Below are positions 1 to 64,000 of a stretch of DNA of 64,000 nucleotides, piece after piece. Numbering within the stretch: the stretch's first letter is position 1; each line of letters opens with the position of its first letter. The position numbers were made by a program, and so were the translations under genes. The stretch covers positions 686,757 to 750,756 of the forward strand of contig JAQGDQ010000061.1 of NCBI GenBank assembly GCA_030141605.1, read 5' to 3'. Origin of the DNA: Tubiluchus corallicola. Its lineage: Eukaryota > Priapulida > Priapulimorpha > Priapulimorphida > Tubiluchidae. The notes under the pieces were generated by a model. That model did no database searches, was not told the origin of the DNA, and was given only the letters and a program-made list of their open reading frames with translations.

Positions 1-500
1 TTGTAACTTCCTGGTACAAAAATTTTGCACTGTCAAGCATTATCAAGTCAGTTTAGCAGTTGTGAATATTAAAGCAACGGCAGTTGTAATTTTCTTAGTT
101 AACGAGTAAATTCGTGAATTCAGTCAGCTGTCACACACGAAAAGACAACTGCTTACAGTTTTTGTAATTATATTTACGAAGAACGCACATGATTTTACCT
201 TGTGACTGTTAAAGCAATGGCAGTTGTAAAAGTTGTTTTTCTTAGTTAGTGAGTACAATCGTGAAACAAAGGTTCAGTACAAACAAAATATTAAATCTTA
301 CAGACGCAGCAAGCAGCATGCATAATAATGCATTTCAGGGAGAAAAACCAAGTTTATAGTTTCTGTCTTTGCATTGTTTGGACAATTTCTACCACAAGTT
401 TTTTATCTGTGAAAGCATGTGTAAAAAGTGTGTTGCCTCTATTGTTATGACAAGATTGAAGTCTTCCCTAATAATTAAATCAGTAACAAAGCTGAATTAC
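1..500. other. Plexin intron after exon 15 (left edge), with a degenerate direct repeat
   Basis: No exon-like segment that continues IPT2 is seen here on the minus strand. The stretch holds two imperfect direct copies of about 60 bp, roughly 60-117 and 200-264. They share the cores AAAGCAAYGGCAGTTGTAA and TTTTCTTAGTTA, with GTGAA at the end. Confidence 0.6.
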
Positions 501-646
501 CTGATAACTCTGCACCCTAGTTGCTGGTCAAGTAGCACAAAGGCATTGATGGAGGAGCCAGCATTCATATGACGGCCTCTGATTGTTACTTTTGTTCCGC
601 CAGATCGAGGACCTACTTTTGGTGATATGCTCGTAATTTGTGGATC
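501..646 (-). CDS. Plexin coding exon 15: IPT/TIG domain 2, first part; last exon in window
   Basis: 146 nt, phase 0 in and phase 2 out. Acceptor TTTCACTTAG precedes 646; donor GTAATT follows 501. It encodes DPQITSISPKVGPRSGGTKV, then IRGRHMNAGSS and LDQQLGCRV, the opening strands of the second IPT domain. The reading frame continues in exons beyond the left edge, so the gene is truncated by the window and is not broken. Confidence 0.94.
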
Positions 647-3600
647 CTAAGTGAAAAATAAAAAGTGGTCATTGAATTAATTTTTGCTGACAGGCAGAGA
701 CGAGTGATGATTTAGCAAGAGGATTACTTATAAATACCAGAATGGTTTTACTAATGAAATAAACGACTATATATATATATATTATCATTTTTACAAATGA
801 TAAATGAGAGTAGACGACTTTATTTCTTGAGAAGTTACATTGACAACATATGCAACATATCAAAAAATCCTACGATACTTGTGCAAAAAAATGCTGGTTC
901 ACAAATTTATGAAAATAAAAATTAATGCACAATGCACACTCAAACACAGGTAACTGACAATTGGTAATTTTACCCAATTTTGTATCCGTATTTACAGTTG
1001 AAAAAATGCAGCAATCATTTTCTATTAACTCATGAAAGCTCTTTCAAAAAGAAGAAGTGTTGTAGTAGAAAATAAAAATACTAACCACAAATTTGAAAGG
1101 GCTAGGTGCAGAACCTTCATACCGGCTATCGCGTCGTATTACAACCTTGAAGCGACCCTTTGAACTTTTATTGGTGGCCTTAGTCTTGCAAACAATTCTA
1201 GAATATGCAAAGTACACTCAAAAATTGTAGGCAATGCCGAAAATATTTACCAGACGATAAGTGACAATGTGACACATTCTCTGCCCACAAGTGACAAAGC
1301 GACACATTCTTTCCTCACAAGTGACCACATGACTCACTCTGCTCACAAGTGACAATGTGCTAACTTCTCCAGACATAATAATACGACTTTTCTCAACATA
1401 CAAGTGATAACAAAAAAAATTCTCTGTTCGCAAGTGACAACGTGAACCATTTTCTCCTTGCAAAACAATAAATAAAAGGCATTTGATAAGTTTTACACCC
1501 AGTCGATAGTTTCAATAAAAACAGTGAAATTTTATAATGAAACAACTACGTTCGCAGCTCAAGGCAAGTTTTCTCATTTAAGTAAAAAAATAATGTAGGC
1601 ATCATTAGTTTAAACACTTACTGCCGTGTTGGGATATAGCTATGCTTGTATGGAACACATTCGTTATCAGCCACGAAAACGCCTTCTTTGATATCATCAA
1701 AAGTTAAACCCAAGTTATACCCAGATATGGTGACATCGGTTCCACCTTCATAGGGTCCAGTTTTTGGCTTTACCTGTAAAAATACACTGAGTATTATTTT
1801 CCAGGAAAATAAAATACAGATATAGTTTGTTAGAGTGGTTTGTTGATGGGCCGCTTTCTACAAATCTATACAATAAGTAACTCTAAACGCAATAGCATTC
1901 ATAACTACAATCCTTACAATCAATTTGTGACACAGTTGTTACTAAAAATTTGTACAAAGGAGTTACCGCCATTCATAATGCGCACAGTATTCAAACTTTT
2001 ACCAATAACCTATTTGGACAGACTCACCTCTTCAATTGTGGGGTTGGGGCAAATTGATTGACCGTCCAGAAAGTCATACGTCGGACAAGTCTCCTTAGTT
2101 TTGCATTTTTCTTCATCTTGACACCACGCGCAACGATATTTTGGATCAAGTGTTAAACAGAAGCCACACCGTGCTGCCATCTTCTCGCACTTATACACAG
2201 TAACTATAGTAAGAACAGAAAAAACTCAGTGATTATTACATTACCTTTGTACTATTGATTAAAGTTAAAAAGAGGATTTATATAACGAAAATCTTTATTC
2301 ATTTATAATAATGTGAAACCAGACACATGGGCCAGCGGGGAAAAAATCAAAGACACAAAAACGGCTTTAAAATTTTTTGAACTACTTCATTCAATTCAAA
2401 TAAGTGCATTTTTCACACGCCTCGTAAAAAATATACAAGGACTGCACATATTTTTTCTTATGTGAGCTCTCTCTATTTTGTGGTAATTGAGTTACATAAA
2501 CGATTCACACCTACATTCTTTTCCCTAGAATGTTTGCTGCCATGTTTTGTCATATGTATACTAGCCCACATGCAAGTTGGCTAATTCTATTGCTTCGGGC
2601 AATAATATATAACATATGTAACATTATAAACATTACATACATAGAAATTGTTTAGACAACGCTTTATGTAACCTTTTATCAGCAAACATTTTCAAACTGA
2701 AACTAGTATGCAGATTAAAAGTAAAAATTAAAAACAAAAATTTACTTTTAATATTTTTTGGATTGTCCAAGGGTCTATTGTCACTAGTGGGGCCATACAG
2801 AATAGCAAACTGCACTGGCATACTTTCCACTGGTCTGTTGTACTCAAACTGCAAAAAACAGGATACATTAATTTGAATTGAACTGAATTAAATTTATTGA
2901 CTAACTGGGATAATGAATGTTAATAATACATCACATACAATGTTATAACGAGTTAGTCCAAATTAAAAACAACATCGGTAACAAAAAGTTAAAAGATCAC
3001 ACAGATAAAAACACAGGTTCACAATGAACAAACTGATTACAACAAATCATGTTAGATGTCAAATATAACATTCAATTGAAATGAAGGAGTAACTTTGTAA
3101 GACTTATTGCAAATAACTGTAGCATCGAATGGTATAAACTGTTTACTAAATTTAAAATGAATATTGATTCAGGCAAAAATTATTCAAGCATCAGTTTTGT
3201 TACTGTTTCCTAATATTAAAATGAATATTGATTCAGGCAAAAATTATTCAAGCATGTTCTTACATAGTTTCATTATTTCGGCTACTGCATTTGTACTATC
3301 CATTACATTGTTAGAATTAAAAAAATCACATGAGAAATTAAACTTAATATTGCTGCTCTAGTTCCAAATAGCAGACTGCATGGCAGGAAGATTTGCATCA
3401 CACATAACTTTTTTGTTCCCTAGAAATATCAAAATGAATAACAAAAATCATCATTTACAGCATCCTATCTTATATGAGACTTTAACAGATGTACATAAAC
3501 AAGAGCAACATACCTTAAACCAACCACATTTTATATCAGCAGAAATGAGACCAGACTCATAAGTTGCAGGTACCGTGGTTACGCGTCCATCTACATTGTA

Positions 3601-6600
3601 CTGACATCTGAAGGGAGCAATCCTGTCATCCTGAACTATATCCTAAAGACAAAAAGGAACAACAGTAGTAATGCATGATGGAATTGGAAAATGCAGTATT
3701 TTGCAATTTTCAATACCACAAAGCATATTTACAGTAAATTTCTGCAGCTTTAACTGACCTCAACATTAATAGCTTGAACTACAACTTGGGTGTCACTCGA
3801 ACCGGACGCAATGAGGAATTCAGTAGTGGAACTGTTGATTTGGGGGCAAAAGTCGGGGCCTGGGCGATTGCTTCGACCAGGAACCTGTAATACAATCAAG
3901 AACAGTCATTAAAATATTAATTTTAATACAATACAAAATTTGCTTAACTTACATAACTTACGTAACATAACATAACATAATTTACATAACTTATTTTTCA
4001 ACCTGCGTAACTTAAAATTTCAAAAAGCTTTTACATCTTAAACTAATTCAATTTTCCAATTACTGATACTAAGATAAAATGTAGAGCAATGTTTGCAATT
4101 TTGCATACTTCAATAAATTCATAATAAATGCTTGAAAACCTCTAGATTTATACACTTACAATGAACTTTTGAAAATATCTAAAACTATGCATCTATATGG
4201 AGAAGTTGTGGTTTTTTTTAGCTATAAAGAATGAATTTTTCTGTAAAGAATAAGACATGGTTGATCAATCTTTGTCTATACAGGTTACCAATATTGGCAT
4301 ATTTGCTGAAAATAACGAGAGAGCATCCAACACTGAGTCCAGTAAGCAATAAAGAATGAATTTTTCTGTAAAGAATAAAACATGGTTGATCAATTTTTGT
4401 CTATACAGGTTACCAATATTAGCATATTTGCTGAAAATAACGAAAGAGCTACTAACACTGAGTCCAGTAATAATGTGATCGTCTCGACAGTAGGAGGCAA
4501 TATCGTGCGTGCATCTGTGTTTACTTCGGCACCAATTACAAGCAAAGCTACTGTTCGTACAAGATGTACAGCTGAAATGAAAATGCGCATTGTTATAATA
4601 CATGTAGTAAACATTTTAAATAAACATCACCAAAAAACATTTACCAGGCGATATTTAGGCATGTTGACTGTTTGCACTGTACTGTGTAATGCTCTTTTTT
4701 TCTAATGTTAATAAGATTTTTTTCTTTTTCTTGTGTGATTCTTAAGAGTTCCACAGCTGTAAGAGCTACGAAAAATGTCAATTGTCACTGTAAGTTACAT
4801 TGGTTATTAAATTGCATGTGACTGTAAGTTGCATCATATTGGTGCGTTAAAAATTATATAGATACTAATACATTACAAGTTTACGTTACTAATTTATTAA
4901 CGTGCAAACATGATTTTATTATATAAATCATATAAAATTTATCTATTATAAATTGTCGATTAATTATAAATTATATAACTCTCCCACAAATTGTTACTAG
5001 CATCACTAAATTAATTAAACTAATTATAAAGCTTATAAATAGCAGTGGCTGCAAGGTGACCATATGTCGTCTCTTGCCACCCCACCTTAATACAGCTATA
5101 CGAAATTGTGCATTGTATACTATATTATGTTATAAATGTGTTTCATTGGCAGAAATAACTAAAATCTTAATCTTAATCTTAGGCATGAATAATACAATGA
5201 AAATACATAGAAGAAAATTTGATAACATGGTTTTAGCACAGTCTGTAAAGTGAAATACAAAGCTCAACTAAAGGCGTCTCCACAAGCTTGGTTGCACATT
5301 GTAACAGCTATCAACTACAAATAAACGGTAAAGCTAAAACTATACATACGATTTGAATAGATTGCAGTCGTATAATCGGAAATCGGTCGATACAAACTCA
5401 GGACTACCGACCACTTTTACAGACAGTTTGGTTGTGTAGTATTCTAGAATAAGCAAAAAATAGCACAGCATTAATTAAATATCAATAAAAAGAATAGAAC
5501 TAATGTAGTTAGATTTTCTAGCTTAAAGAAAATGACAAGTCATTTAGCATATTGGCTTTATTTTACCGTTGTTACTTAAACTTAGAAATATACATTAAAG
5601 AAATTTGCAAAAAACTGTCTATAAAGCATAAAGTTAACTTATACTACAGTTGTACAGAAATTTTCAAGAGCGGTGGTAGCCGCCATTCACTTAAAAATGA
5701 TCATGTAACTTGTGGACTTCATGACTTTTCATAAGGGCATCAAGGGGGTTCGTAAGCGCGAGTTGCTTAAACAAATTCAAACTTCTGCACCTCAATTAAT
5801 GTTCATGCAAAAATATCATAAAAATTAGCTGTTTTTGGAAAAACTTATTAAGTTTTTGATGGAAACTGACAGTGCGCTAGTTTTCTTTAGATGAATAGAA
5901 GTTCCCAGAGAGCCTGGTCTTTCCTTTTATCCTAAACCAACTTTGTACACAGAGGTAATCACTTTGCCTATTTACAAAACCTGATTACAAAATAATGTTA
6001 AAACAAACAACAAGACACTTACGTTCGCCGTATGGTATGGGAGCCAGTTCGCTGCTAAGTGGAGTCCTGCATTTCACTCCAGCTTTTTCTTCTCCACCTT
6101 CACTCCACATAGTGCGGTTAGCAGCTGTTTGTAAGGAATCGCCAAATGCAGTGAAGACACACATGAATTGTCCAGAAAGTTTCGGAAAATGATCAATCTT
6201 AATGTCCAGCTGAAAAAAATGGGTTTGTGTAGGCAACAATGTTAATATAGGTGAAACAGTCATCCATAGGACACACTTACTTAGTTCTAAGCAAGTTATT
6301 CAACACGCCCAATCTTGACCCAGATTGGTAGAAGCATAGATAAAAATAGAAGAAGCAGCATAAACCAGGTTTGCTTATTGAGTTAGAATAACCTGGTAAA
6401 ATGATAAATCTTGATAAGCAGATGTAAACAACGAGCTTTCTCGTGAGTTATGAAAAATTATTGTATGCTCCAGCAGTTTAATTCGTTTTTCGATCTCAGA
6501 TAAGCTGCTGATTCTGGAATACATCATTTTGCAACTTCTGCCAACTAGCATTACCAAAAACGCATACAGATTCTGATGTTATGCTTAACCACATGAACCT

Positions 6601-25900: not shown

Positions 25901-28900
25901 ATGGCTTTCAAGCGCTTCCCACACTTTTCCGTGACGAGAATTCGACTTATTGGTAAATGAAAGCAACGTGCGTCCGGCGGTGATGTTTTCACTAATATTT
26001 CGCATACAGCATGGCTAAAGGCGGTGCGTGGTCAGCCAAAACGCGAACTGTTTATCAACCATAATTCAGTTCCACATGAGCAAGCTATTTTGGAATTTCG
26101 CAGTCGTAGGTTAAACTGCAGACAGCTAGATTGATGAATTTATTAAGTTTTTCAGACTGAAAGATCAAAGTTCACATTCTTATGGAAGACTGTATGGAAG
26201 AATGTGCGATTTGTCTTATAAATTTGACACAATCACTGGCAGCGCAATACAAACTTGGCTGAAGTGTTCATAATCTTAGCAACACGCAACCAATTAGGGA
26301 AGTGATAACCGTATTTAAGAATTTTTAAATTTGCCAGCTACTTTGCACGGGAAGTTTTTTAAGTTTTTTTCATCAAGCACTTAATTTATCTTATCAGATT
26401 TTCTTATCGAAAATCCTCGTTTTTGTTAAATTTAAATTTGTGTTCTAAATTATTTTGCTATTTTGCAGTTACTCTACACAGTATTTTACCTTTGTTATCG
26501 TACATATGATAACGTATAATATTGTTCAGTGCTCATTTTTATATGCATTAATTGTGCATATCACGACATAGATTTCATAAATTCAAAGTAAGAATTTTCA
26601 GTTAAGGATGCTAGGGCTTATTTGCTGTGAGGGTTAAACATTTTTAAATGCCTGCAGCCTAGTAATATCAACGGTATTACCAACATAATAATTTTGTTCT
26701 TACGATTTGTACATTTCATATATATATAGCCATGTTGTTTTTGTAACTTGGTCTGGCCTTACGAGTGTATAATATGCATAAATGACTAGGTTTTATCTGC
26801 ATTAAATGTGGGTCAATTTATAACAAATTAACGCACTTTATCTCTATCACTAAATAATGTCCGTACATGTTGCTAAAAGAACTTGCCAAGAAGCTAGCCA
26901 GGCACTACTTTTGTGACAGAATTTAAAACTTATCTTTACAAAGAAGCCACTTCCCTTAATGAAAAATATAACATGGACAAAGTAATGGTTTTTGAGCTGA
27001 CTTCTAGTGGTTTTTATATACACAAATATTACAATTTTAGGCTTTATCTACAACAGTTAACAGCATACAGTGTACAGAGAACGCAGGCGTGTTAACTTTA
27101 GCTGGTTTATAGGTAATGTTACCTTATAATATTTTTATATTAATTAATCTATATACTAATCCATATGTATTTGCAGGCTGCGTGTTTATTGCTTTTAATT
27201 TCTAATTCCTCGTTTGGTAATGTGTATGTATAGGCCGGCAATAAATGTGTTTATACGTTAGGATTTATGTATGTAAAATATATTTATCCATTTCAATGTT
27301 AATGCATTTTATTTTTTAAATATCTAATAATTGCTAAAATTTTGTTTAGGGAGTGGGATTAGATGGCCGACTCAAACAGTCATCCCTCTTGGTAACAGTA
27401 GATTGCACTAGGGTAACATGACAAAAAAGTAAGCTAATGCCTGGGTGAGGTTATATATTACACAAGATCATGCCACTCCTTATACACATGTGTAACACAC
27501 ATGTAGCAACATCAGACTAATAATGTATGTCACAAGTTCAAAATCAACCCAAGGCAGATCTCAAGATTTAGACAAGTTAGTCCGCTTTCTTGTGGCAAAA
27601 GGCAATTTAGTTAGTTTTGTTATGTGCAGACTAACAAGTTTTGAAAAAAGAGAACTTTTCTTTTTAAAGGTGCTAAATAAATTATTATGAGGAATGAATG
27701 TTACAAAGTCTTATCACAACACTATTAACTAGAATGAGTGAAAAATGTATACAAGTGAAAACAAATATTAAAATAGTTCTAATAGATTACATACCGATCT
27801 GTCTTTTCCACCTACTAACAGCTGCATTAAGAGACAACACAAAGTTGTTAACAATGCATAGGTGAGTTGTTTATGCAATTATAATCATAAAGCAAAGTTT
27901 AGACTATAGCGACTACTGCACTTAAAATTTCGAAAATCAATGTTAATGTTTATTATGTGAATTTGCACCAAGCTCTCATTGTATTAGTTAGGCAACTATT
28001 TGTGAAAATGAAATTGGGCTATAAATTTGAATTTGGAAGGTAAGAAAAGTGAAAGTAAGCTACAAACGAATTTTAGAACAGCAAAACTATTAATTTAGAA
28101 CTGCAAAACCCTTTTCATTTATTTCAAAATAAGTTACCAACTTTGGAGACTCCACACACATCAATCCATACCCTATATACGTCTTCACACATACACAAAA
28201 CATCGTACGAGCAAGCACATGCATGTACATTAACTCATAGGTAACATAATCAATCAAACATCAAATTAGCTTTAATAAATAAAAGGAGCAAAAGGTCTTT
28301 AAATACCAACCTTTTGGCATCTGATGGCATCACCAGGTAACCACTGAATGGCCACCCCATTTCCTTCGAAACATTCTCTAATGTTCTGTGTGAACATCAT
28401 GCGTATATATTTCAAAGGGTACACACACAAAGCCGACTGATCGGTCGGGATATCGGTATATTCCAGATCGGGGGTGCGTTGTAAACTCTTCGAGAACACC
28501 ACAAAGAGCACATCATCTTCAGCAGACATATTCAACGAGTAGAACTTGCTAAAACTCTTTGCTAGATCTACTCCTGCTCTGCCCACATAGCCAGCATTGG
28601 CAAGGTTATACTCTCCACACTGCAATGGCACTTCCGTGAAAGACCAATAATTCTTATCCCGCTCACAAATGCGCACAAGTTTTGATATAAATGGACTACT
28701 GGAATCAGGCGTGGATGACACCTTCATTCCTTGCACTGTTAGCAAATAACTAAAACCGTCAGAACTGAAACCGTATTTGTAATGTATAGGATACAACCTA
28801 CGCACGTCTTTATTGAATATGGAAAGAGATGATTTAGAAGATATACCCGTGTAAATGAGCTCAAATAATGAGTCGGGCTCAAGGGACCGACTGCTAACTT

Positions 28901-29510
28901 GTGGAACTAATTCTCGATAATCAACCTTCGGTTCAGACCCAGTTGAAGTATAACTGGTACCTACCACAAGCACCTGATTAGTTTTTTGAGGAGAAAATGT
29001 ACTTGAGGGACCAGGTGCAATAAATGCAACTGTTGACGCTGTTTTATTGTTGGCAGCGATATAGTACCATTCATCACCCTCTTTTGGGTACAGTTTTTCT
29101 GATATATTTCGTAAGCTGCGAACTTCACATACACCTTGGAATAAAGTACCACACACTAAGAGGCGATCTCTTTCCTTGTCTATCACAAGAACTTTGTTGT
29201 AGTTATCTGTGGGCACTCTAACCTTATCACACGGTCCCTTTCCAGGACACTCAGCGTTGTCAGAGTGCGGACCGGTCTCGATGGACAACCTTTTCCGCAA
29301 ATTTTCACTGAGTTCAAAAAGCCGATTCTTCGCACCAATAAACAGTCGCCCATTGGTCGTGTCTTGGGCCATGTGACTGAATTCATGGGTTTCATCCGAA
29401 AAGGAGTTCACAATTACATCGGCCTGACACTGCCGAATGAGAAACGAAAGGACAATCAGCAGTGCCATCCAGTGAAGGATTAGATAATCTTTTGTGATCA
29501 TCCTCATCAT
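501..29510 (-). CDS. Plexin (semaphorin receptor), N-terminal ectodomain half; 3' part outside window
   Basis: Plexins are single-pass membrane receptors for semaphorins, signalling through a cytoplasmic GAP domain to Rap/Ras-family GTPases and the cytoskeleton. Fifteen coding exons join in consistent phase: 28311-29510, 21393-21584, 10474-10602, 8056-8156, 6756-6885, 6023-6209, 5350-5443, 4457-4571, 3759-3884, 3514-3642, 2746-2848, 2028-2203, 1622-1773, 1086-1197, 501-646 (3,092 nt). Predicted order: signal peptide (about 1-30), sema propeller (about 31-510), PSI1 (about 515-558), linker module (about 585-670), PSI2 (about 672-715), second linker module (about 720-835), PSI3 (about 840-885), IPT1 (about 888-982), start of IPT2 (983 onward). 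This is the canonical plexin ectodomain order. All introns are GT-AG, with phases 0,0,0,2,0,1,2,0,0,0,1,0,2,0 and 2 at the last donor. The membrane segment and RasGAP-like domain are absent and expected left of position 1. Family assignment is firm. Subfamily is not: the sema-to-PSI1 stretch looks A-like, but this is a judgement by eye. Confidence 0.95.
1086..1197 (-). CDS. Plexin coding exon 14: IPT/TIG domain 1, end
   Basis: 112 nt, phase 2 in and phase 0 out. Acceptor TATTCTAG precedes 1197; donor GTTAGT follows 1086. It encodes QIVCKTKA (the IVC strand typical of IPT1) and ends SPFKFV, matching the plexin F-x-F/Y-V end of the domain. Confidence 0.92.
1258..1468. repeat. About 30-bp minisatellite in plexin intron 13
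   Basis: Five to six units begin with CAAGTGACAA (or a close variant) and contain ACATTCT-like centres. Units are mostly 30 bp with one expanded member in the middle. The array accounts for an 81-codon minus-strand open frame with repeating VTC peptide motifs, so that frame is not a gene. Confidence 0.8.
1622..1773 (-). CDS. Plexin coding exon 13: IPT/TIG domain 1, first part
   Basis: 152 nt, phase 0 in and phase 2 out. Acceptor TTTACAG precedes 1773; donor GTAAGT follows 1622. It encodes KPKTGPYEGGTDVTISGYNL followed by FDDIKEGVFV. This is the P-x-x-G-P-x-x-G-G-T-x-x-T-I-x-G-x-N-L signature of plexin IPT domains. Confidence 0.94.
2028..2203 (-). CDS. Plexin coding exon 12: PSI domain 3 and start of IPT1
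   Basis: 176 nt, phase 1 in and phase 0 out. Acceptor TTACTATAG precedes 2203; donor GTGAGT follows 2028. It encodes VYKCEKMAARCGFCLTLDP, then YRCAWC and further cysteines of PSI3, then CPNPTIEE leading into the first IPT/TIG domain. The spacing of the cysteines fits the plexin YKC-x6-CGFC/CGLC pattern. Confidence 0.94.
2746..2848 (-). CDS. Plexin coding exon 11: second linker module, end
   Basis: 103 nt, phase 0 in and phase 1 out. Acceptor TTTTTGCAG precedes 2848; donor GTAAAT follows 2746. It encodes MPVQFAILYG and LDNPKNIK. The latter matches the plexin LDNP/IDNP-x-N-I motif that immediately precedes PSI3. Confidence 0.92.
3138..3255. repeat. 64-bp tandem duplication in plexin intron 10
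   Basis: A run of about 40 bp starting TTAAAATGAATATTGATTCA occurs twice, ending at 3191 and 3255 with exactly 64-bp spacing. Upstream flanks (ACTGTTTACTAA against ACTGTTTCCTAA) also resemble each other. The 40-bp cores are identical. Confidence 0.85.
3514..3642 (-). CDS. Plexin coding exon 10: second linker module, middle
   Basis: 43 codons, phase 0 at both ends. Acceptor GTCTTTAG precedes 3642; donor GTATGT follows 3514. It encodes FRCQYNVDGRVTTVPATYES and a second cysteine in ADIKCGWFK, the disulphide-bearing strands of the module between PSI2 and PSI3. The intron between this exon and exon 9 is only 116 bp, the shortest in the gene. Confidence 0.92.
3759..3884 (-). CDS. Plexin coding exon 9: second linker module, first part
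   Basis: 42 codons, phase 0 at both ends. Acceptor GTATTACAG precedes 3884; donor GTCAGT follows 3759. It encodes VPGRSNRPGPDFCPQINSST, then a strand ending QVVVQAINVE. The CPQI motif right after PSI2 is conserved in plexins. Confidence 0.92.
4224..4470. repeat. 125-bp tandem duplication including the exon 8 splice donor
   Basis: Segment 4224-4345 recurs at 4349-4470 with a constant 125-bp offset and about 7 differences in 122 positions. The exon-proximal copy (4349-4470) holds the last 14 nt of exon 8 and its GTTAGT donor. The intronic copy has GTTGGA at the equivalent place. Confidence 0.92.
4457..4571 (-). CDS. Plexin coding exon 8: PSI domain 2
   Basis: 115 nt, phase 2 in and phase 0 out. 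Acceptor TCATTTCAG precedes 4571. It encodes CTSCTNSSFACNWCRSKHRC and CTHDIASYC, a textbook PSI core. The donor is placed at 4456 (GTTAGT) because it restores frame to the next exon; a GT two bases earlier does not. The last 14 nt of the exon and the donor lie inside a 125-bp tandem duplication whose second copy is in the intron. Confidence 0.9.
5350..5443 (-). CDS. Plexin coding exon 7: end of linker module and start of PSI2
   Basis: 94 nt, phase 1 in and phase 2 out. Acceptor TTCTAG precedes 5443; donor GTATGT follows 5350. It encodes TTKLSVKVVG, then FRLYDCNLFK, the FxxYDC motif that opens a plexin PSI domain. It was too short to appear as a standalone ORF. It was found because both flanking exons leave split codons that only this exon resolves: Gln at the 5' junction and Ser at the 3' junction. 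Confidence 0.92.
6023..6209 (-). CDS. Plexin coding exon 6: module between PSI1 and PSI2
   Basis: 187 nt, phase 0 in and phase 1 out. Acceptor TTTTTTCAG precedes 6209; donor GTAAGT follows 6023. It encodes a beta-rich segment with LSGQFMCVFTAFGD near the start and VKCRTPL near the end. These match the Y/F-x-C-x-F and I/V-x-C-x-x-P signatures of the immunoglobulin-like plexin module that follows PSI1. Confidence 0.92.
6756..6885 (-). CDS. Plexin coding exon 5: rest of PSI1 and start of linker module
   Basis: 130 nt. Acceptor CTTATAG precedes 6885; donor GTAAGT follows 6756, phase 0 at the end. It encodes CSPSSECLHG, the closing cysteines of PSI1, then a conserved Trp and QCSVITEVYPNQLQITLAQT. 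That last stretch corresponds to the plexin strand after PSI1 (C-x-x-I-x-V-x-P-x-x-x-x-V). Confidence 0.92.
8056..8156 (-). CDS. Plexin coding exon 4: PSI domain 1, first part
   Basis: 101 nt (33 codons plus 2 nt). Acceptor TTTACAG precedes 8156; donor GTAAGC follows 8056. It encodes VSKVVVRDC, then a PSI core with the C-x5-C-x2-C and YCGWC pattern (STCQECLGARDPYCGWC). The split codon is completed to Lys by the first base of the next exon. Confidence 0.95.
8157..10473 (-). other. Plexin intron 3 (2.3 kb)
   Basis: Non-coding as far as I can see. It holds an alternating CA/CG tract at 10287-10337. The minus strand has an open frame of about 55 codons between about 9790 and 9618 without recognisable homology or splice logic. 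No repeat family was recognised. Confidence 0.6.
10287..10337. repeat. Alternating purine-pyrimidine tract (CA/CG)
   Basis: About 50 bp of CA and CG dinucleotides with a central GCGCGCGCGCGTGCGC run and one phase slip. Such sequence can adopt Z-DNA under supercoiling. It lies in plexin intron 3, close to exon 3. Confidence 0.85.
10474..10602 (-). CDS. Plexin coding exon 3: end of the sema domain
   Basis: 43 codons, phase 0 at both ends. Acceptor TTTTTTAG precedes 10602; donor GTCAGC follows 10474. The peptide contains VDPGQPVLPDMTLD and HVYAMTPHQ, the last propeller strand that leads into PSI1 in plexins. The exon is isolated between introns of 10.8 kb and 2.3 kb. Confidence 0.93.
11856..11894. 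repeat. Perfect 14-bp inverted repeat (hairpin)
   Basis: ATTACCCCATTATA at 11856-11869 is followed after 11 nt by its exact reverse complement at 11881-11894. It is not followed by a T-run, so it is not a terminator-like element. It may be the core of a small foldback element. Confidence 0.8.
16793..16914. repeat. Purine-rich tract with an (AG)25 microsatellite
   Basis: The + strand is almost purely purine for about 120 nt, ending in 50 bp of uninterrupted AG at 16861-16910. Only a few pyrimidines interrupt it. It could form triplex (H-DNA) structures. Confidence 0.9.
21393..21584 (-). CDS. Plexin coding exon 2: late sema domain
   Basis: 64 codons, phase 0 at both ends. Acceptor TTTTCAG precedes 21584; donor GTGAGT follows 21393. 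The exon opens with SPLVIEDDFC and ends with the blade GVTVAFVGTGDGKLKK. These match the plexin pattern of an acidic DDFC motif followed by LTSV and a VVFAGT-like strand with a GK/GR ending, close to A-type plexins. Confidence 0.94.
22562..22611. repeat. Short tandem repeat, unit about 16 bp
   Basis: Three imperfect units of CAGGTAAAAAAGTCAC type lie in tandem. Confidence 0.75.
22855..22911. repeat. (AAT)n microsatellite
   Basis: About 57 bp of AAT/ATA repeats with two early AAC interruptions. Confidence 0.9.
23348..23515 (+). mobile_element. tRNA-derived SINE with AAT-rich tail
   Basis: An A-box-like TTTAGTCTAGTGGTAACGCG near 23355 is followed about 30 nt later by a B-box-like GTGAGTTCGATAC at 23401. 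This is the internal RNA polymerase III promoter layout of a tRNA. The acceptor-stem pairing of a true tRNA is not evident. The tRNA-like head is followed by a body ending CAAATAAAGATTATTATT and an (AAT)n/(ATT)n tail, typical of SINE insertions. It is most likely a dead or dormant copy inside the plexin intron. Confidence 0.75.
28311..29510 (-). CDS. Plexin coding exon 1: signal peptide and most of the sema domain
   Basis: Exon of 400 codons starting at tandem ATGs (first at 29510) and ending AAG before a GT donor at 28310, phase 0. Residues 1-30 form a signal peptide: a charged start, a hydrophobic core rich in L, V and I, and a likely cut after CQA. The rest has sema-propeller landmarks: FSHMAQDTTNGRLFIGAKNR near residue 43, a TGPHSDNAEC segment, the CGTLFQGVCEVRSLRNIS strand, VAFIAPGPSS, RICERDKNYWSFTEVPLQC, and AIQWLPGDAIRCQ at the end. 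NIS, NKT and NMS are possible N-glycosylation sites. A single long exon for the first part of sema also occurs in vertebrate plexin genes. The second ATG, one codon in, could equally initiate. Confidence 0.96.
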
Positions 29511-29517
29511 TGCGCAT
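29392..29517 (-). other. Out-of-frame upstream ATG overlapping the plexin start
   Basis: An ATG at 29517 lies 7 nt before the plexin ATG and opens a 41-codon frame that stops at 29392, inside the signal-peptide/sema region. If the 5' UTR acceptor is right, scanning ribosomes meet this ATG first. It could dampen translation, but its context is not obviously strong. Confidence 0.4.
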
Positions 29518-29533
29518 TTCTTAATTTTTTTAT
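29511..29533 (-). other. Probable 5' UTR segment of the first plexin coding exon, with splice acceptor
   Basis: Directly upstream of the start codon the minus strand reads a pyrimidine-rich run ending TTTTAG at 29534, then 23 nt to ATG. This suggests the coding exon begins with a short 5' UTR part, with one or more non-coding exons further right. No upstream exon can be fixed from sequence alone. Confidence 0.5.
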
Positions 29534-29865
29534 CTAAAACAAATACAGAAAATTAATAAATCATAAGTTTACATACAGTAGTACCAAGTAAATCTCGTTT
29601 GTCAGTAATTCAAATTCAGAAACAGCTACATGACATATATCTGTTATTCAAACAAAAACACAATAATAGCAGTGTTAAAGTGTCATTTCATCGCAGAAAA
29701 TTGAAATTTTGCACAACTGCATAAAATAACTGTTTTAACACAAATAATGATGGCTTTGGTTTAAAATGAAAAATTGATCTCAACTGGCTAAGCTGTTGAC
29801 AGACATGACAGTTTACTAAACTAAAGTAGGACTATTGATGTGATGACAATATTACCCACTTGTAA

Positions 29866-50054: not shown

Positions 50055-50225
50055 AAATACCTACTGGTAACTACTTAATTAGTGCATAATAGGCTCTGCA
50101 TATATAAACTGGTTGTATGTTTGTAAATTTGCCACTCATGATGACAGCAGTAGTCTGTCGAAACGTTTGGCATGATTTTAACTATGTAAAGTAAAAGTGT
50201 TAATAAAGTTGTATTGTTTTAACTA
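50055..50225 (+). repeat. Repeat family copy A (direct)
   Basis: It shares CTACTTAATTAGTGCA, TTGTATGTTTGTAAATTT, GTCGAAACGTTTGGCATGA and TAATAAAGTTGT with the copies at 52.8 and 53.1 kb. A perfect 5-bp stem GACAG/CTGTC (50143-50147 with 50155-50159) sits just before GAAAC. Confidence 0.8.
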
Positions 50226-52740
50226 CAAATAAATACCTTTCATGCAGAAAAGAGAAGTGGGCTTAAGAAACCGTTTTTGAAGAAGAGACTGAAGACTATA
50301 AATTTGAGGACATCGAATATAATTGCATGAGTTAAGGTCTCCAAGAATGATTGCTGTTATAGAATGCCTAGTAGTGGAATTTATAGCTTCGTTGTAAAAT
50401 ATGTACGAAGGCCTATGTACCATTTTGTTTTGATATCAGATACACGCAACAACAGCAAAAAACTGTTGGAATTAATATAGATTGCCATGTACATCCTCAG
50501 CAATATGAGGATTATGATGTTTTGCTTGCACGTTTTTGAAAAATATTTTCAACACGTAGTGTTGGTGTAAGCTAACAATCAAAAAGCCCTTTAACTAAAT
50601 ACGATTACACGTGAAATTTCCTCTACACGTGAATATGACAACCTTGCTAACAAATATGAGCACGATATACATATCACAGAACTTCTGAAAATTTATTGCT
50701 TGAGATTTCATCTCCGTCCCCGTATGTTATTTTGGCTCAGCCATAAAAAACAGACGGTGGTGTTACCCATCCCAGATATTCCTCTAAAGAAGTCATAAAA
50801 ATCATGAGCACCAAAAAACGTGTTCTCAAAGGAATGAACTGCAGCACAAAATGCCATCACCACCAACAAGAAACAGCTTGAAATAGTGGCTAGTTTCGCT
50901 TCAATTAATTTATTTGAACCTGCCTAAAGGTAAATGTTTCTCTGTACAGATATTGGGCACTCACAACCCAAGACCTTCTTGTACTTAACGAGGAAGTGGA
51001 TATTGTTCCTTAGTCCATACGAACGTCCTCCACTCCTGAAAGGCCATCACTTCCGTCTCACTGTGTTACGAAGCAGCAAACTTCAAACATCTGAGCAATT
51101 CCAAAAACCGAATAACGAACTGGAAGCACGTCACAAAACTTGACCTACGATCCCAGTGGCCCAATTTGGCACCCAAACCCTGACATATCACCAGTACAGT
51201 GGCCTATCATGACACTGTCAGAATGTTTGCCTCATCGATACCAAAAGTAACATGCTCACACCGCTCCACTTTAATGCAGTTGTGCTTTCAACACAAAAAT
51301 TGCAAGTTATCATCTTTAAAAAGGGTACATCGGTTAATATGGCCTTTTAAACATAAACAGTTGCAAACAGCACAAATTAGAGATCCAATTAAGCGTGACC
51401 CACTGACCCATGTGCAAATAGATGTCCACTGTGCACTTACTCTGGCTTCTCTCCTGTACAGCTCTAATGAAAAGCCCTAATAAGTCAGTAACCTAAGTGT
51501 ACAGTGGGACTAGCAATGGTCCAGTAACCTAAGTATTGCGTGTGCGTGTAGTGTGTACGCATGAAATGCACCCACTTTTATTTGTGTTACTTAAAACCGT
51601 GATTGTTTGGATTCGTGCCCGCTAAATAAACTGCCTAATGTTTTGCTACATATCACAATTCCGCAGCATAAACAGCTGAACTACAGTGGGATTAATACAT
51701 TTTTAATGACCGACAGACAGCCTTGTTGTGTCTTCTGGAGTGCTTGGCAGATGATATTAAAGTGGAATTTTATCGATTCACAGGCTTCCAGGAAGTTCCG
51801 CTTGGCTGACAACAGCATAAACAGGGACGGACGGGATGAGAAGTTCGTCAAAGTACAACATGGAACCATTTTAGGAATAAAACATTTCTCATTATTACAA
51901 CCAGGAGATTATATTGTCTTATATTACTCAGGAGAAATCCCTACTATTTGTTTTCAGTCCTCAACCTATTGTGTATAGTGTCACAAACTTTGTGAATTAA
52001 ATTTCTCTACTTTAAAATAGACAGGCTATTAGACCTACATAAAGTATACAGTTTCTTGCCTCGAGCATAAGAGCTTATGCGTATAAGTGTAAACGTACAT
52101 TTCACCTTTTTTAAATACAATACGCAGGCAACTCATTGAATGTAAACCAATGCTGGGCCAGTTAAAATATTCAGAGAGACATACAGAAATAAAACTGTGA
52201 CATTTAAAAGATCACTTTTGTTGATTTAAACACGACTGCCAAACGCTCATTATCATGCAGTATTTTCAGCATCATTTGCTAAGGGAAATGACGTAATTCT
52301 AAACATGCAACTACATGTATGTATCAAAAAAGTACTTCTAAAATTAGTACTTATACTAAGCATATCTATGAAACAAAATTTTGTTAAGTGCCACCAGCTG
52401 GACCTGACTCCAAGACCTCCCAAGTTCACGTTTCCAATTGACCTCATTAACTGCAGTAACTTGGTTATTCGCAAGCCATTAGCACTGTCCACTGCACTGA
52501 ACTGCAGCTAATGACAGCCAGACATAACTTGTCAAGAGTTAAATGTGCTAAAAGCGAATGGTATGCTTGGAATGCGTTGCACGGAAGGGGAATGAAAGCA
52601 CGAAGAGGATTTTCTCTAGAATAAGGTTTTCTGAATACTAACAATGTCGATGATAATGATAGTCTTGGTAAAGAAGATGATTCGATTATAACATAAATCC
52701 AAGCCATTTTTATTACAGGCACATAAAAATATTTATAATT
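50226..52740. other. Stretch without a recognised gene
   Basis: It contains open frames of 93 codons (51199-51480) and 123 codons (51607-51978) on the + strand with no recognisable domain, and a short direct repeat CAGTAACCTAAGT near 51.5 kb. I do not call a gene. Confidence 0.45.
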
Positions 52741-52930
52741 GAAAACAACACAACTTTATTAAAAGCTTTTACATTAAAAAGTTATAAGTTAAAAACATGT
52801 TTAACGATTCGATTAAGCTGCTGCTGTCATTGTCAGTGGCAAATTTACAAACATACAACCAGTTTATATGAGCAGAGCGTATTATGCGCTAATTAAGTAG
52901 TTAACAGAAGCCAAATAGGTAACGAATAAG
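52741..52930 (-). repeat. Repeat family copy B (inverted)
   Basis: Reverse complement of the same family: minus-strand order ATTCGTTACCTATTTGGCTT, then the ACTACTTAATTAG core, then AATAAAGTTGTGTTGTTTT. It is more diverged in the GATGACAGCAG...TCGAAACG centre. With copy C it forms an inverted pair about 120 bp apart. Confidence 0.8.
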
Positions 52931-56125: not shown

Positions 56126-59100
56126 GAATTATTCATAAAGTAAACCTAAGTTATACAGCTGAGTTGCTGGCCAAATCACGTCCGCACAAGTCAAATATAA
56201 GAACGTACACATTAGATACACAAAAAACGCAAACCATCATCAAGAACTGCAACTCATTCAAGAACTATTCTACCTAAGTGGAGTAGTTGGAAAAGACTCA
56301 ACCTAAACCGCTTCGGTGTTGATCTGGTATAGAAGTATTCCGAATAAGAACCTTTGAACTCGAACACGTAATTCACGAGTCCTTCGTAACAATACTCAGT
56401 AACTCAGAACAGTTCAGAGCTCGAAGTAAAAATCAGCAAGGCTGTGAATAACAAAAGCTTGAAATGAATGATTGAAAACAGACCAATGATTAGAACGCTT
56501 ATACTGAATTTTTTTAAAAAGGGGGAATACAACGGGACGTTGGGAGTCGAGAACGCAGTTAATCCAAAAAAACCTAGAGATGTTCATACAATTTACTAAT
56601 CTTCTTTCTTAAACCAAGAAACCAGATTGTCAATAGTGACAGCACACAAACTGATAAGTCTCAAATCAGATCAACACGATCAAAACCCTGAATACAATAC
56701 TAACTGGCTTAAAAAGCTTTCGGAGAATCCGTCAATCCGCCGCATACTTATATAAAGTCTGACAGTTTGCTCACTGCTTTGACCCCAACACGGCAGTCAT
56801 TTGGGACGTGCACAATCGCTGGTAATTTCAGCTTGAACTGCGGATGATCTAAATTGAATTTGGATGCAGACCTGCACGCTATGAGTCAGACCAAGTTGAT
56901 AGATGTAATTGTTTTATTCACCACGGACAACAGATGAAAGGGCTATCATGCTGCCTAAACTATAGCTGTCAAGAAAATGTTGATGACGAGTATTATGGCA
57001 ACCTAACTGGAACACAATGTTCTTCTTTGGTAGGCCTGGTACGTCTTTGAAACAGGGGTATTAATTATGAACTCCATGCGGTATTGTACGCTTTATGACT
57101 CATGGTCACTATGCAAGCATCGCAAATGCCACTGAAGACAGAAGAGTTAAGAGTATGAAATATCAAAAGAGGGCACATAAATTAAGTTATATTTAGTATT
57201 TCACTTCAACGATGAGAAAAGTTAAAAATATTTTCAGAATTCGCATCACTATGGAATAACGAGTATTACTCACAAGCATTTAAGGGTTCCTACAGAATAC
57301 AACAGCGACATGGGCTCTTTTGTACTATATTTCTATAATTCTATAATAGATTAATTACTCAAGTTACTCAACATGGATGCTTCACTTGGGCAACAACGTT
57401 AAATCAGCATTATATAAACTTTTCAATTCCTTAAGACAAAAATTTTCCTGGTGTTAATTTTTCAAATTATTCTCATAGGAAGGGCTCAAGGGAACTGTAA
57501 ACTTATGAAGCGTTGATAGCACTTTGGCATCTATAACGCCACACATCCATGGTATACTAGTGAACATGCATGGAGACAAGTATGCATGTATAGTGACCAA
57601 TCTCAGCAAGGCAGCTACATGACAGTTTATTTTCAAACAAAAAAACTCGATCAAACTATTCGCGGGCATTTTTTCATGATTCATGATAAAGCTAAGCCAG
57701 CTAAGCTTAATAAGATTACACTGAGGTACCCTATTTATTATATAAATTATTAAGATGTCGGTCATGAGTGTTCCTACTGTCCTTCAAATTCAGGGTTAGG
57801 GCGAACTTTTTTATCCACCCTTTACTATGGCTTACATTATCGTGGAATAGTTAACATTTTATTGTATAATAGTTTCAGGTAAATTTTCTCGTGGAAACCT
57901 ACATTACTGCTATACGTCTGATAAGGCTCAAGTTTCTAATTTGTCATGCTTTTCAATTTTATGACACTGGCTGCATTAGACGTCTTGCTTGAATTCTAAT
58001 TTAGACATTCAAACACTGAACAAAAAATGAACTGCATACAAATATTCAGGTAATCTACGCAGTTTTGAATACATTATTATTAACCTATTTGTTTCAATTA
58101 ACCTTGGCTTGTATAGTTAAAGAAAACCAAGGCGCCAGCTTTCACCACCCTTCACAGATTACGTAGTCTTCTCAGTACCACGCAACAGCCGGAGGTGTTA
58201 CTATGACCACTTATATAATGTTAGTTACACAAAGTCATAGAGCCAGTCTTGAGCTCATAATTTTCACACACGTCATGATAGCAGACAGAAAACAAGTTCC
58301 TAACGCGCCGCAAAATTCCGTTTAACCACAGCAGACTGCAAAAAGGCAACGTTGTCTTTTTCTAAAAACTGGCAAAGCTTGAGACGAACTAAAATGATTT
58401 AAATGCCAAACAGGTGACTTCGCTGCTAAGAGTCTTAGATCAGCTACTTGCTATATCAACCAGTGTGACCCGTACAAAAGTACTGCTTGCCCGATAACCT
58501 TTCGGTAAGGGCAGTTGGTTCGCAGTCAGTGATATCCAGGGGAACTACTACATATGGCATTTCAGGGGTGCGGAAAATCAGATTATGGTGGTTCATGTCT
58601 TCAGTAGTTTTACTAGCTACTAGAATTGTTGCTTTGCAACTCAACAGCCTGTGAGACTGATTGACTGACGCACAGACAAAATGGCCAATCGGACGCTCGA
58701 TCAAACGCTTTCTATTCTTCGGCAACGTCTCAAATTTACTCATATCACCGAAAAAAAGAGAATTATTCTGAAATTGTTTTATGGACCCTTCATGTTCCAT
58801 TGGCGGTCTGACGTCCTGTGATTTGTAGATATTTCGGAGGGTGAACAGCAACCTGTTGCTAAGTAACGGGAAGCTGTCAACAAAAATGCCCAACTAGTGA
58901 ACAAAATATTACATAATAAAGAGGCGACCGCACTGTAATAAATACTAAACTGGGAAGCAACAAAATACTCAAGCTAATAAAAATCCTGTTGTAATTATTA
59001 TTCTCAGTTTAGGTAAGTCATAAACTTGGCAGTGGTGAAACTGGATAGGTAGGAGTGCCATGGTTAAAAGGAGTCTGATAGCAAGTTATGTCTTAAAGTT

Positions 59101-60976
59101 ATAGAAGCGTAACTTAGTGTAAATCAACAACAGTTGGCACACAAAGAAGCAGGCGACAGAAGTTGATTAGTGGGAAAGCTAAATTCAAACTCACACTACG
59201 TGGATAGGTGCGCAACATTGAGGTTACTCGAGGAGAGTTTACCACGTTAGACACAACGTGGGAAGTTACCACGAAATGTAAAATATGTATGTTTGTTAAC
59301 GTTAAAATTTAGCTTTTAAGTTTGCGTAATAAAAACATACTGACTTTCGTGATGTTTCTTTTGAATTATCAACAAAGAACTTTTCAATTCACTTTTATTA
59401 CTTATCACAAATTTCATGTTCACTCACAAACAGATATCTAGTAATTGGTTTAATTTACAATTAAAAAAATATTGCATGATCCATTTTAAAACGTGTTTGT
59501 GTTAAGCAAAGCACTAAATCACGAGCAGCTTCTAAAGGTTTTCTTGAATATTTGTTGTAACCTTCTTAATAGTACCGTTAGTAATTCTCACACCAGACAT
59601 TCAAATACCTGTTACTTCCAGCACTTTGTGACAGTTGCTTACATATTTTGAACTGCTTAGTGCGTTGCAGTTGTACCATGTGGATCTTAGCATCAGTAAC
59701 CCTTTATACCAAACATTCTGGTACCGGCCTCGTTCTAGTAAAGATTTGCTAAACCGATAGCTCTATTTGTTTGTTCGAGTTCTAGAAATTAGAACCATCA
59801 GTATGGAGCTAATCATTCAGTAGGAAGCATAAGTGCTACAAACAGTTGCTATTAAAGGATAAAAGTTAGAAGCCGGGAAGCTTTATCCAGGATATCTTTA
59901 ATGCAGTTGCTTATCCCAGTTTCCGCTTTGGCTTCAGAAGGCTTCGAGATCATATCAGCATGTCACTCCCAAATCAGTTAAGCCCGCCCAGTCATTCATT
60001 TTCTCTTTGTAATAGTTCTTGTGTTCAGTGTAATCCCGCCTGTACTTTGTGGTCCAATTTAATAATAATAAATATGTAAGTTACAAAACTTTCATTAAAA
60101 TTAGACCTACTTTCCTTGTTTTCACGTTCATAAAATCTGCTCCATAAATGTGCAAATTTTCCACATAAGTTGCAGTAAATCCACTTTAATGGCTGTACTA
60201 GTACAGAAAAATTGTTTTACCTTATTTTTGTAACTTGTTGCGCATTGTAAGCTAATATCCAACATTAAACGACAGCCTACATTAAACTAATGGTTGAGCT
60301 AGGATCAAAACCTACCGCAATATCAAGGGTAAGCCTGGGGAGATGACATATTGAGGCTTTTAGGCACGTTCAGACGTATGTACAGGCAGTGGGACAGGTT
60401 GGAGTGGACAGGACAGGTTGGAGGCAGAATGACACGTGAAAAATCCCAGCAGTGGCCACCCATTCGTTTTAACAACCAGTGTTGCTTAACTTCAGCTTCT
60501 AGGCAAGCACCATGAACATTCAGCTACTTTCCTAAGCAAACAGTTTATGCAAATCGTGACAATGAGAGATACAGAATAATTCGAAAATATTTTTGTACCT
60601 AGAAACATTTATGATATTCGTAAAGCGGTTATGATTACTCTAAAGGGGTTATGATTATTGTTACTTTACGGGCCTCACCTGGTTACAGTCAAAGGCACTG
60701 CGACCGGTTCACCATTCACCTGCATTCACTTTAGATGCAACACGACACCTGAAAAAGAAAGAATGTGATTCAAATTCAAAATAGGTACCAAAAAATTCGA
60801 CTTCAAAAGGCATCGCACCTGCAACTATAAAACCACCATTAATTAACGCCACAAGTAACACATTAAGAGGAAGTTTGCCTCTAAAACAGAAATCGTCGAA
60901 CATCTTCGTGGTGTTCCGCAAACTGAAGATAACCACTTTTTAGTACAAATTCTTCGGAAGTTAAGAAACTAAACAC
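56126..60976. other. Gene-free stretch
   Basis: The longest frame is 145 codons (58456-58893, minus) with no signature I know. A 75-codon minus-strand frame at 60709-60936 has a hydrophobic N-terminal segment. A 22-bp tandem doublet (AAAGSGGTTATGATTA-like) lies near 60.62-60.66 kb. A TTTAATAATAATAAATATG tail-like motif near 60.06 kb may end an old retroposon. Confidence 0.45.
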
Positions 60977-61982
60977 CATTCTCACATAGCACTGTGAACT
61001 ATTTTGACTTTACAAACTCGCATATACGTTCAATGAGTTGTGCAATTACAGGGATGGTGAATGTGATACATCATTCTAGTAACAGTAATAACATGTACTA
61101 TTTGGGCACAACGGACAAACTACGGAAAATCAGACCACAGATAAAAACGAAATTGCTGCCCACCTTTGCACAAACTGCACAGGTATGTGTGATGTGCGAA
61201 CACCCAAGTAATATCCTATATAAGATATTAAGGGCATACTATAGACATTATGTATATTTCAGGTAGCATCTGCACAGGAACTGAATAAATACAGTGCAGT
61301 TCTACATCTCCTCCTCCAACCACAACCTTACTGATTCCACCATCATGGTTACAAAACTCTTCAGAGAATCTATGAAATATTACTTTAGATTAATAAATAA
61401 TAGCTCCCTCTATGGCAGTACAAACATCGACACGTTATTCCTTTTAACAGCCAGTGTCTCCAGACCTACGAAGGACACGCGAGTCTGCATGACAAACGCT
61501 CTCAAACCTCTTTCTCACAGAAATGCAGACTGGTAGCGTGAATCACAACTCCCCGACTAACCGTTTTTGATGTAGAGTAAGCTAGTATTTACATGCACTA
61601 AAAAGATGAAACCGGAAACGGTACAAATTCGGGCAGGTTTTTCATGTAGTGACTTTGGGGATCGACTTTGCACAAATCAGTCGAATGCTCTTCCTTTATC
61701 GAGGCATGTACAATATATAAATGGTTTGCTCAGACTATGGTCTAAACGTTTGGCTTCGATTATGCGCTTACTTCTTAAACCTGTAATGTTCATACGTGAT
61801 AGAGTTTGAAGCTTGCAAACCTATAGAGTTTAATAGTGCCTAATAAGTCATTTGATCCCATCTTAGTGCATATACTTATCTCATATAATTAACACGCATT
61901 AATTTTATGTACGTGAAGCTTTTCTGCCTGTGATAAATTTTATACGACACCGCTGTGATGCTTGAATTACCGAATAATGTGC
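60977..61982 (+). repeat. Left arm of a 1,006-bp perfect inverted repeat
   Basis: Every position x in this arm pairs with position 124,960 minus x in the right arm. I compared the two arms line by line and saw no mismatch. Pairing stops abruptly outside 60977 and 61982. Open frames of 90, 80 and 67 codons here recur identically in the right arm and match no family I recognise. Confidence 0.95.
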
Positions 61983-62977
61983 AAATAGATTCGTTGACTG
62001 GCTACCTCATTTTGCATATCAAGAATTCCTGTCTTGCTGGTGTGCTTTGCTACTATATATTTGTATAAGTTGTGTTGACAGAACTTGATATAAAAGTGCA
62101 TTAAAGGACTGGAAAGTTGTAGAAACATACGACCTTACATGCGAATTAAAGCAAATTAGTCGGCATTAGGACTTAATGTCATGGTTAACAGTTTCCAGTA
62201 TAAACGAAGCTGTTTTAGTTATTTGAAGGGTCAGCCTACTTAAAACTTAGTTTTGATCCTTGCCTAAAGTTCCATATTTCAGCATTTTATTATGGACTGA
62301 ACCTTTGCACTATGTAGACCATTACACAAAGTCTTCAATTTTCTGAAAATTCACGTTTATCCACGTTGCACTTAATTATTTGACGTAACTAATGTGTGTA
62401 AAACGAATCGATTAGACTGCATACATGTACTATTGTCTTAAAACACATGTAAATAGTATAGCCATCTAACCATCTATAAAAAGATGTATTTTGCTGATAC
62501 TAATTAAAGTCTTTCAATGTTTGTAGAACTTGTATACACTGAGCATCTTTTTCGACAAGGTACCTTTTATGACGTTTTATGGCCCATCTATTATCCAAAG
62601 GTCCTTATTTAAAGTACACAGAGCATTGTACTTGCCGGGTTTTCACAATATAAGTCGCTGGCTGTATTTTACTTCATTGTTTAGATTTGTACGATTAGTG
62701 GTGGAGCATTTAATTTTGATTATTTAGAGAGTGCCATTAGTAAGTTAAAATCAACAGTCAACGTAAGGACCTACATGAAAATGATTCTTCTTTGACACTG
62801 TATTATCACAACTGTAGTATTTGTCATTTCCAGTTCAGTTAATCACACAGTTTTCTACTGGCTGCATTACTGTGTTGAAGTGGCTATTATTAATATATCT
62901 CTTGCAGAAAATTTATCATCAATATCAAGTAAAAACGTGGAGCAATTACATTAAAACGCGGGCAGCTAATCCCAATC
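61983..62977. other. Unique spacer of the inverted repeat
   Basis: 995 bp between the two arms, not self-complementary as a whole. The longest frame is 65 codons (62530-62727). No transposase, RNA gene or recognised repeat is seen. Confidence 0.85.
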
Positions 62978-63983
62978 GCACATTATTCGGTAATTCAAGC
63001 ATCACAGCGGTGTCGTATAAAATTTATCACAGGCAGAAAAGCTTCACGTACATAAAATTAATGCGTGTTAATTATATGAGATAAGTATATGCACTAAGAT
63101 GGGATCAAATGACTTATTAGGCACTATTAAACTCTATAGGTTTGCAAGCTTCAAACTCTATCACGTATGAACATTACAGGTTTAAGAAGTAAGCGCATAA
63201 TCGAAGCCAAACGTTTAGACCATAGTCTGAGCAAACCATTTATATATTGTACATGCCTCGATAAAGGAAGAGCATTCGACTGATTTGTGCAAAGTCGATC
63301 CCCAAAGTCACTACATGAAAAACCTGCCCGAATTTGTACCGTTTCCGGTTTCATCTTTTTAGTGCATGTAAATACTAGCTTACTCTACATCAAAAACGGT
63401 TAGTCGGGGAGTTGTGATTCACGCTACCAGTCTGCATTTCTGTGAGAAAGAGGTTTGAGAGCGTTTGTCATGCAGACTCGCGTGTCCTTCGTAGGTCTGG
63501 AGACACTGGCTGTTAAAAGGAATAACGTGTCGATGTTTGTACTGCCATAGAGGGAGCTATTATTTATTAATCTAAAGTAATATTTCATAGATTCTCTGAA
63601 GAGTTTTGTAACCATGATGGTGGAATCAGTAAGGTTGTGGTTGGAGGAGGAGATGTAGAACTGCACTGTATTTATTCAGTTCCTGTGCAGATGCTACCTG
63701 AAATATACATAATGTCTATAGTATGCCCTTAATATCTTATATAGGATATTACTTGGGTGTTCGCACATCACACATACCTGTGCAGTTTGTGCAAAGGTGG
63801 GCAGCAATTTCGTTTTTATCTGTGGTCTGATTTTCCGTAGTTTGTCCGTTGTGCCCAAATAGTACATGTTATTACTGTTACTAGAATGATGTATCACATT
63901 CACCATCCCTGTAATTGCACAACTCATTGAACGTATATGCGAGTTTGTAAAGTCAAAATAGTTCACAGTGCTATGTGAGAATG
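62978..63983 (-). repeat. Right arm of the 1,006-bp perfect inverted repeat
   Basis: Exact reverse complement of 60977-61982 as read by eye. The arm ends 17 bp before the window edge, against a CA microsatellite. Confidence 0.95.
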
Positions 63984-63987
63984 TGCG

Positions 63988-64000
63988 ACACACACACACA
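63988..64000. repeat. (CA)n microsatellite at the right edge
   Basis: CA repeats run to the end of the window immediately beyond the right arm. Full length unknown. Confidence 0.8.

Follow-up and report, generated by a model that had tools for sequence, protein, structure and literature searches.

The window analyzed here is a stretch of 64,000 nucleotides that corresponds to positions 686757–750756 of contig C1882, and because this contig comprises 750,756 bases the last base of the window (64000) is also the contig terminus. Close to this terminus lie two arms of 1,006 bp (60977–61982 and 62978–63983) that are reverse complements of each other without a single mismatch and that are separated by a spacer of 995 bp (61983–62977). 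A first-pass annotation had given these coordinates and lengths as well as the perfect identity of the arms, and exact matching across the window reproduced them to the base. The second-longest exact inverted match in the 64 kb (seed 25) is merely 35 bp, which rules out a chance origin of the 1,006-bp pair. Positions 1–60000 contain three inverted matches of at least 150 bp, the longest of which is a self-palindromic match of 533 bp with 69% identity, and an inverted pair of ~180 bp with 81% identity and an exact 35-bp core is located at 50061–50231 and 52730–52910. No noncoding RNA family from Rfam was found at the gathering threshold in positions 57000–64000. Elsewhere in the window, an open frame of 417 aa on the minus strand (28302–29552) matches plexin ectodomains (Sema domain), with the Pfam Sema model falling just under the cut-off; the best PDB match of this frame is the 6fkm chain named Plexin A, isoform A (E 3.7e-75), which we take to be from Drosophila. 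The genome is accordingly likely to be that of an animal, perhaps an arthropod; COX1 was not found in the assembly.

We compared the inverted repeat and its flank with the whole assembly (343,548,820 bases in 2,344 contigs) using a search that skips very common words and reads withheld stretches as N. The arm together with 77 bp of flank was found in three places, namely the two arms in C1882 and C741:207231–208312 on the minus strand, and the spacer was found in two, the C1882 copy and C741:206234–207230 on the plus strand; the other dispersed copies for which the first-pass annotation had asked that arm and spacer be searched did not appear, C1882 and C741 being the only contigs recovered. 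The flank at 58000–60976 matches C741:208237–211225 (minus strand) at 94%. When the minus strand of C741 is numbered from the contig end at 211513, positions 57711–61982 of the window are collinear with positions 1–4283, and positions 61975–63982 align backwards, on the other strand, to 5288–3279. The order in C741 is flank, arm, reverse complement of the spacer, and further sequence, whereas the order in C1882 is flank, arm, spacer, and reverse complement of the arm. C741:207001–211513 contains no inverted match of at least 150 bp. The features of the region are listed here in window coordinates.

57711–60976, plus strand: flank, collinear with the end of C741 (minus strand) in an allele-like overlap, with 96 substitutions (59 transitions) and indels of at most 42 bp over 3,266 bp
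60977–61982, plus strand: arm 1, 1,006 bp, collinear with C741, with 19 substitutions relative to C741 and 0 mismatches relative to arm 2
61975–61982, plus strand: microhomology at the putative foldback junction, TGTGC exact; TAATGTGC versus TAGTGTGC (C741 allele) with one mismatch
61983–62977, minus strand: spacer, 995 bp, in the orientation opposite to C741, with 16 substitutions and one 2-bp gap relative to C741
62978–63983, minus strand: arm 2, reverse complement of arm 1; the arm is single-copy in C741
63984–64000, plus strand: terminal 17 bp, TGCGACACACACACACA, to the contig end, matching neither the reverse complement of the flank nor what follows the spacer in C741

Substitutions between C1882 and C741 amount to about 2–3% (~3% in the flank), and judged from the alignments the differences look allelic. 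The 19 arm substitutions relative to the C741 allele are the same in both C1882 arms, which is what copies of a single molecule would show. C741 is a different allele, and the absence of the inverted repeat is accordingly demonstrated for the other haplotype and not for that of C1882 itself. The comparison also suggests that C1882 runs on into the minus strand of C741 and that the two contigs are probably neighbors. Past the spacer, a ~240-bp stretch of C741 (about 203689–203930) is a dispersed repeat that occurs in at least 39 further places at 90–92% identity.

Arm 2 finishes 17 bp short of the C1882 terminus, and the 17-bp tail ends in a CA run. A 10-mer from this tail (TGCGACACAC) is absent from both strands of C741:197001–211513; the tail was sought in this region and in the window, since chance matches to a CA run would be expected genome-wide. 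A simple foldback would be expected to continue from arm 2 into the reverse complement of the flank, and the sequence found there is different. This counts against a foldback artifact, which would have to be supplemented by another switch or by a faulty read end.

At the junction between arm 1 and the spacer (61982/61983) the two alignments of C1882 to C741 overlap by 8 bp (61975–61982). The end of the arm and the end of the C741 sequence before the spacer agree at 5 bp exactly (TGTGC) and at 8 bp with one mismatch, the reference for this comparison being the other allele. A run of five matching bases has a probability of about 0.0014 per position at the base composition of the window, and short complementarity at the switch point, as measured against the other allele, is suggestive. 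The locus in this way has what characterizes an inverted chimera, namely a second segment in inverted orientation that is reached by skipping a nearby intervening stretch, as seen from the order in C741 versus that in C1882, and short complementarity at the point of the apparent switch.

We also surveyed other contig ends, taking 4 kb each from 20 contig starts, 18 contig ends, and 19 contig middles, with contig numbers chosen at even steps of about 120. C741 and C1882 were included among the starts and the end of C741 was added, resulting in a set of 39 ends; the end of C1882 was left out of the count. The C290 start is all N, and the C1840 end and the C1600 middle are partly N. The C2250 and C1120 samples were extended to 7 and 6 kb, respectively, and all others were left at 4 kb. 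Three of the contigs, C290, C410, and C880, are exactly 45000, 17500, and 47500 long, which suggests that contigs were cut to multiples of 2500 during scaffolding or correction.

With a cut-off of at least 500 bp and at least 95% identity, which was chosen after the list was seen, inverted repeats are present at 5 of the 39 ends (the starts of C1120, C2130, and C2250 and the ends of C530 and C1600), at none of the 19 middles, and nowhere in positions 1–60000 of the window. Those of C1120, C2130, C1600, and C530 touch the outermost base of the contig (four of the five), and that of C2250 starts 1,137 bp in. Comparing 5 of 38 ends with 0 of 19 middles gives a Fisher p of 0.12, and comparing 5 of 39 with 0 of 34, where the window is taken as 15 extra tiles, gives 0.04; the enrichment of inverted repeats at contig ends is therefore weak. 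Under a looser criterion that accepts any inverted match of at least 150 bp, including imperfect self-palindromes, 16 of the 39 ends and 4 of the 19 interiors are positive. Pairs below the cut-off include 501 bp at 76% and 346 bp at 87% in two interiors and about 300–390 bp at 80–92% in four ends. The arms of C1120 and part of the C530 pair fall within families of high copy number, and internal repeats occur in the arms of C1600. The C530 repeat consists of two blocks (418399–419923 and 421404–422839) with about 98% identity and extends to the final contig base; 465 bp of its spacer have a match in another contig, C1139, which stops near the arm border.

One of the 39 ends, that of C2250, is by sequence comparison a close parallel to C1882, and one, that of C2130, is a partial parallel. 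Bases 1–2515 of C2250 match C4:228470–230984 at 99.96%, and bases 2498–4836 match C4 backwards at 99.87%, so that C4 reads flank, arm, and reverse complement of the spacer and C2250 reads flank, arm, spacer, and reverse complement of the arm, which is the geometry of C1882. The two alignments to C4 overlap by 18 bp, and because this overlap holds gaps and mismatches the homology at the C2250 switch is imperfect. Past its second arm C2250 continues with sequence not found on C4 and then with high-copy repeats; as in C1882, there is no continuation into the reverse complement of the flank. The region C2250:4837–7784 holds high-copy, tandem-like repeats and more pieces with 99% identity in both orientations, and several rearranged fragments are present at this contig start. 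In C2130, positions 3053–3905 recur in inverted orientation, at 98% identity, as the terminal 847 bp. C1267 matches C2130 at positions 841–2566 with 100% identity and diverges at the arm border, the two having 1,726 bp of spacer in common; the motif CATAGTA is common to both at that border, and 6 bp of it (ATAGTA) also occur at the inner end of arm 2. Because C1267 departs from C2130 at position 2566 as well and so differs on both sides, it is not a plain unrearranged copy. The near-equal size of arm and spacer in C1882 looks like a coincidence given arm and spacer lengths of 1379 and 942 bp in C2250 and of about 850 and 2205 bp in C2130.

From these comparisons we consider it probable, at roughly 0.8, that the inverted repeat is a technical foldback at the end of C1882, that is, an inverted chimera with an intervening deletion, rather than a genetic element. 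The true order in the genome would then most likely be flank, arm, and reverse complement of the spacer, followed by sequence as in C741. A 3' end that had copied the flank and the arm would have moved ~1 kb ahead to the opposite strand and primed again at a short stretch of complementarity, and copying would have returned through the spacer and the arm, leaving a single spacer and two like arms; the arms would be identical because both come from one molecule. Such a chimera would arise in a DNA molecule or in the library, and the assembler would have left it at the end of C1882. The observations that speak for an artifact are the geometry itself, the position of the repeat 17 bp from the contig end, the C741 allele with its one arm and reversed spacer, the microhomology at the junction, the lack of any divergence between the arms, the long near-identical inverted repeats at 5 of the 39 other sampled ends (four of which reach the outermost base), and the close and the partial parallel among them. 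We infer from them that the origin was in vitro rather than in the animal, and that the chemistry was MDA-like strand switching or a long-read foldback. We also considered whether a hairpin adapter had been missed and had given rise to a full mirror palindrome. This does not fit, since there is one copy of the spacer and arm 2 is not followed by the reverse complement of the flank. Among the three readings offered by the first-pass annotation, an artifact (palindromic read or chimera) has the strongest support, given the contig terminus and the C741 sequence without an inverted repeat; a dispersed foldback element finds no support, and gene conversion between the arms is not needed.

Several points weigh against the artifact: C741 is another allele, the enrichment at contig ends is weak, high-copy families or internal repeats are involved in C1120, C530, and C1600, and the parallel in C2130 is a partial one. 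The contig-end position alone, moreover, cannot separate cause from effect, because a real inverted repeat can also halt an assembler. This bears on the alternative that survives best, a real and recent heterozygous inverted duplication that arose in vivo by replication template switching (fold-back and microhomology-mediated). It would be carried by the haplotype of C1882, would be lacking in the C741 haplotype, and would halt the contig. In vivo template switching can leave such geometry and microhomology, with which the locus is also compatible, and C741, which as a different allele shows about 3% substitutions over the flank, leaves room for a heterozygous duplication on the C1882 haplotype. 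We nevertheless regard this alternative as unlikely in view of the zero divergence between the arms, the location within 17 bp of a contig end, the long near-identical inverted repeats near 5 of 39 other sampled ends versus 0 of 19 interiors, and the unrearranged 99.9% identical copy of C2250 on C4. In this last pair both arrangements are present in the assembly at 99.9% identity, which is above the similarity of the C741 and C1882 alleles, and this appears to weigh against real inverted repeats stopping the assembler, although it is a single case, and the same picture would be expected of a recent real duplication. Also improbable would be a very recent germline fold-back duplication on one haplotype, via microhomology-mediated template switching, in a genome that undergoes such events repeatedly and whose assembly they break. 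A real repeat at this place would represent a young fold-back inverted duplication whose arms had not yet begun to diverge.

If the spacer had undergone a small polymorphic inversion whose staggered breaks left the arm duplicated at each end, this would account for a spacer that is inverted relative to C741 and for the inverted copies of the adjoining 1 kb on either side of it. This model predicts the C741 post-spacer sequence after arm 2, and the outer right flank shows no match to that sequence over the 17 bp compared; we rejected it as very improbable, within the limits that so short a tail sets. A foldback or inverted-repeat transposable element, suggested by long perfect arms around a spacer, is the least credible candidate and was rejected: a dispersed element is unlikely because arm and spacer were found (by a search that skips very common words) only on C1882 and C741, in three and two places; the arm start is no insertion boundary, flank and arm being continuous in C741; two arm ORFs and one flank ORF gave no Pfam match at E 0.001; and, in agreement with the first-pass annotation, which had seen no target-site duplication, the bases beside the two outer ends differ by eye (...AACAC on the left versus TGCGA... 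on the right). With a technical foldback as the preferred reading, caution is advised in annotating this assembly: a perfect inverted repeat at a contig end should be called an element or a palindrome only if reads support it.

A literature search on inverted duplications at contig ends found none, and the comparison with known systems concerns related structures. In vivo fold-back inverted duplications produced by replication template switching resemble C1882 in their inverted copies and short homology at the switch; unlike them, C1882 has a contig-end position and counterparts near other contig ends that point to a technical origin.

Among technical systems, Heinz, Meyerson and Li (2026, PMC12870357) put foldbacks in ONT genomic reads at about 0.55–0.6%, which we count for the artifact reading, and describe virtually none in PacBio HiFi, a near-absence that we count against it. 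The long-read foldbacks described there turn back onto the opposite strand at the same locus, as C1882 does, with a gap of about 2 kb between segments in one example; they are defined by a second segment that lies no more than 200 bp away and, once a filter is applied, by a turn near the read midpoint, whereas C1882 is compared as a contig. AC repeats are given there as being among the commonest non-mapping 21-mers, located between segments in K562 samples, to which the CA run after arm 2 in C1882 bears a loose resemblance. For nanopore ligation libraries, another study reports 0.18–7.33% inverted repeats (PMC13141652). According to Lasken and Stockwell (2007, PMC1855051), inverted chimeras with an intervening deletion make up >85% of 475 MDA chimeras, and >70% of the chimera junctions were primed at complementarity of 2–21 nt. 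As described there, these came from a single E. coli cell whose DNA had been amplified and were found in individual reads, unlike the structure in C1882, which is in a contig, but they have in common with it an inverted nearby second segment (about 1 kb), a skipped stretch, and short complementarity at the switch.
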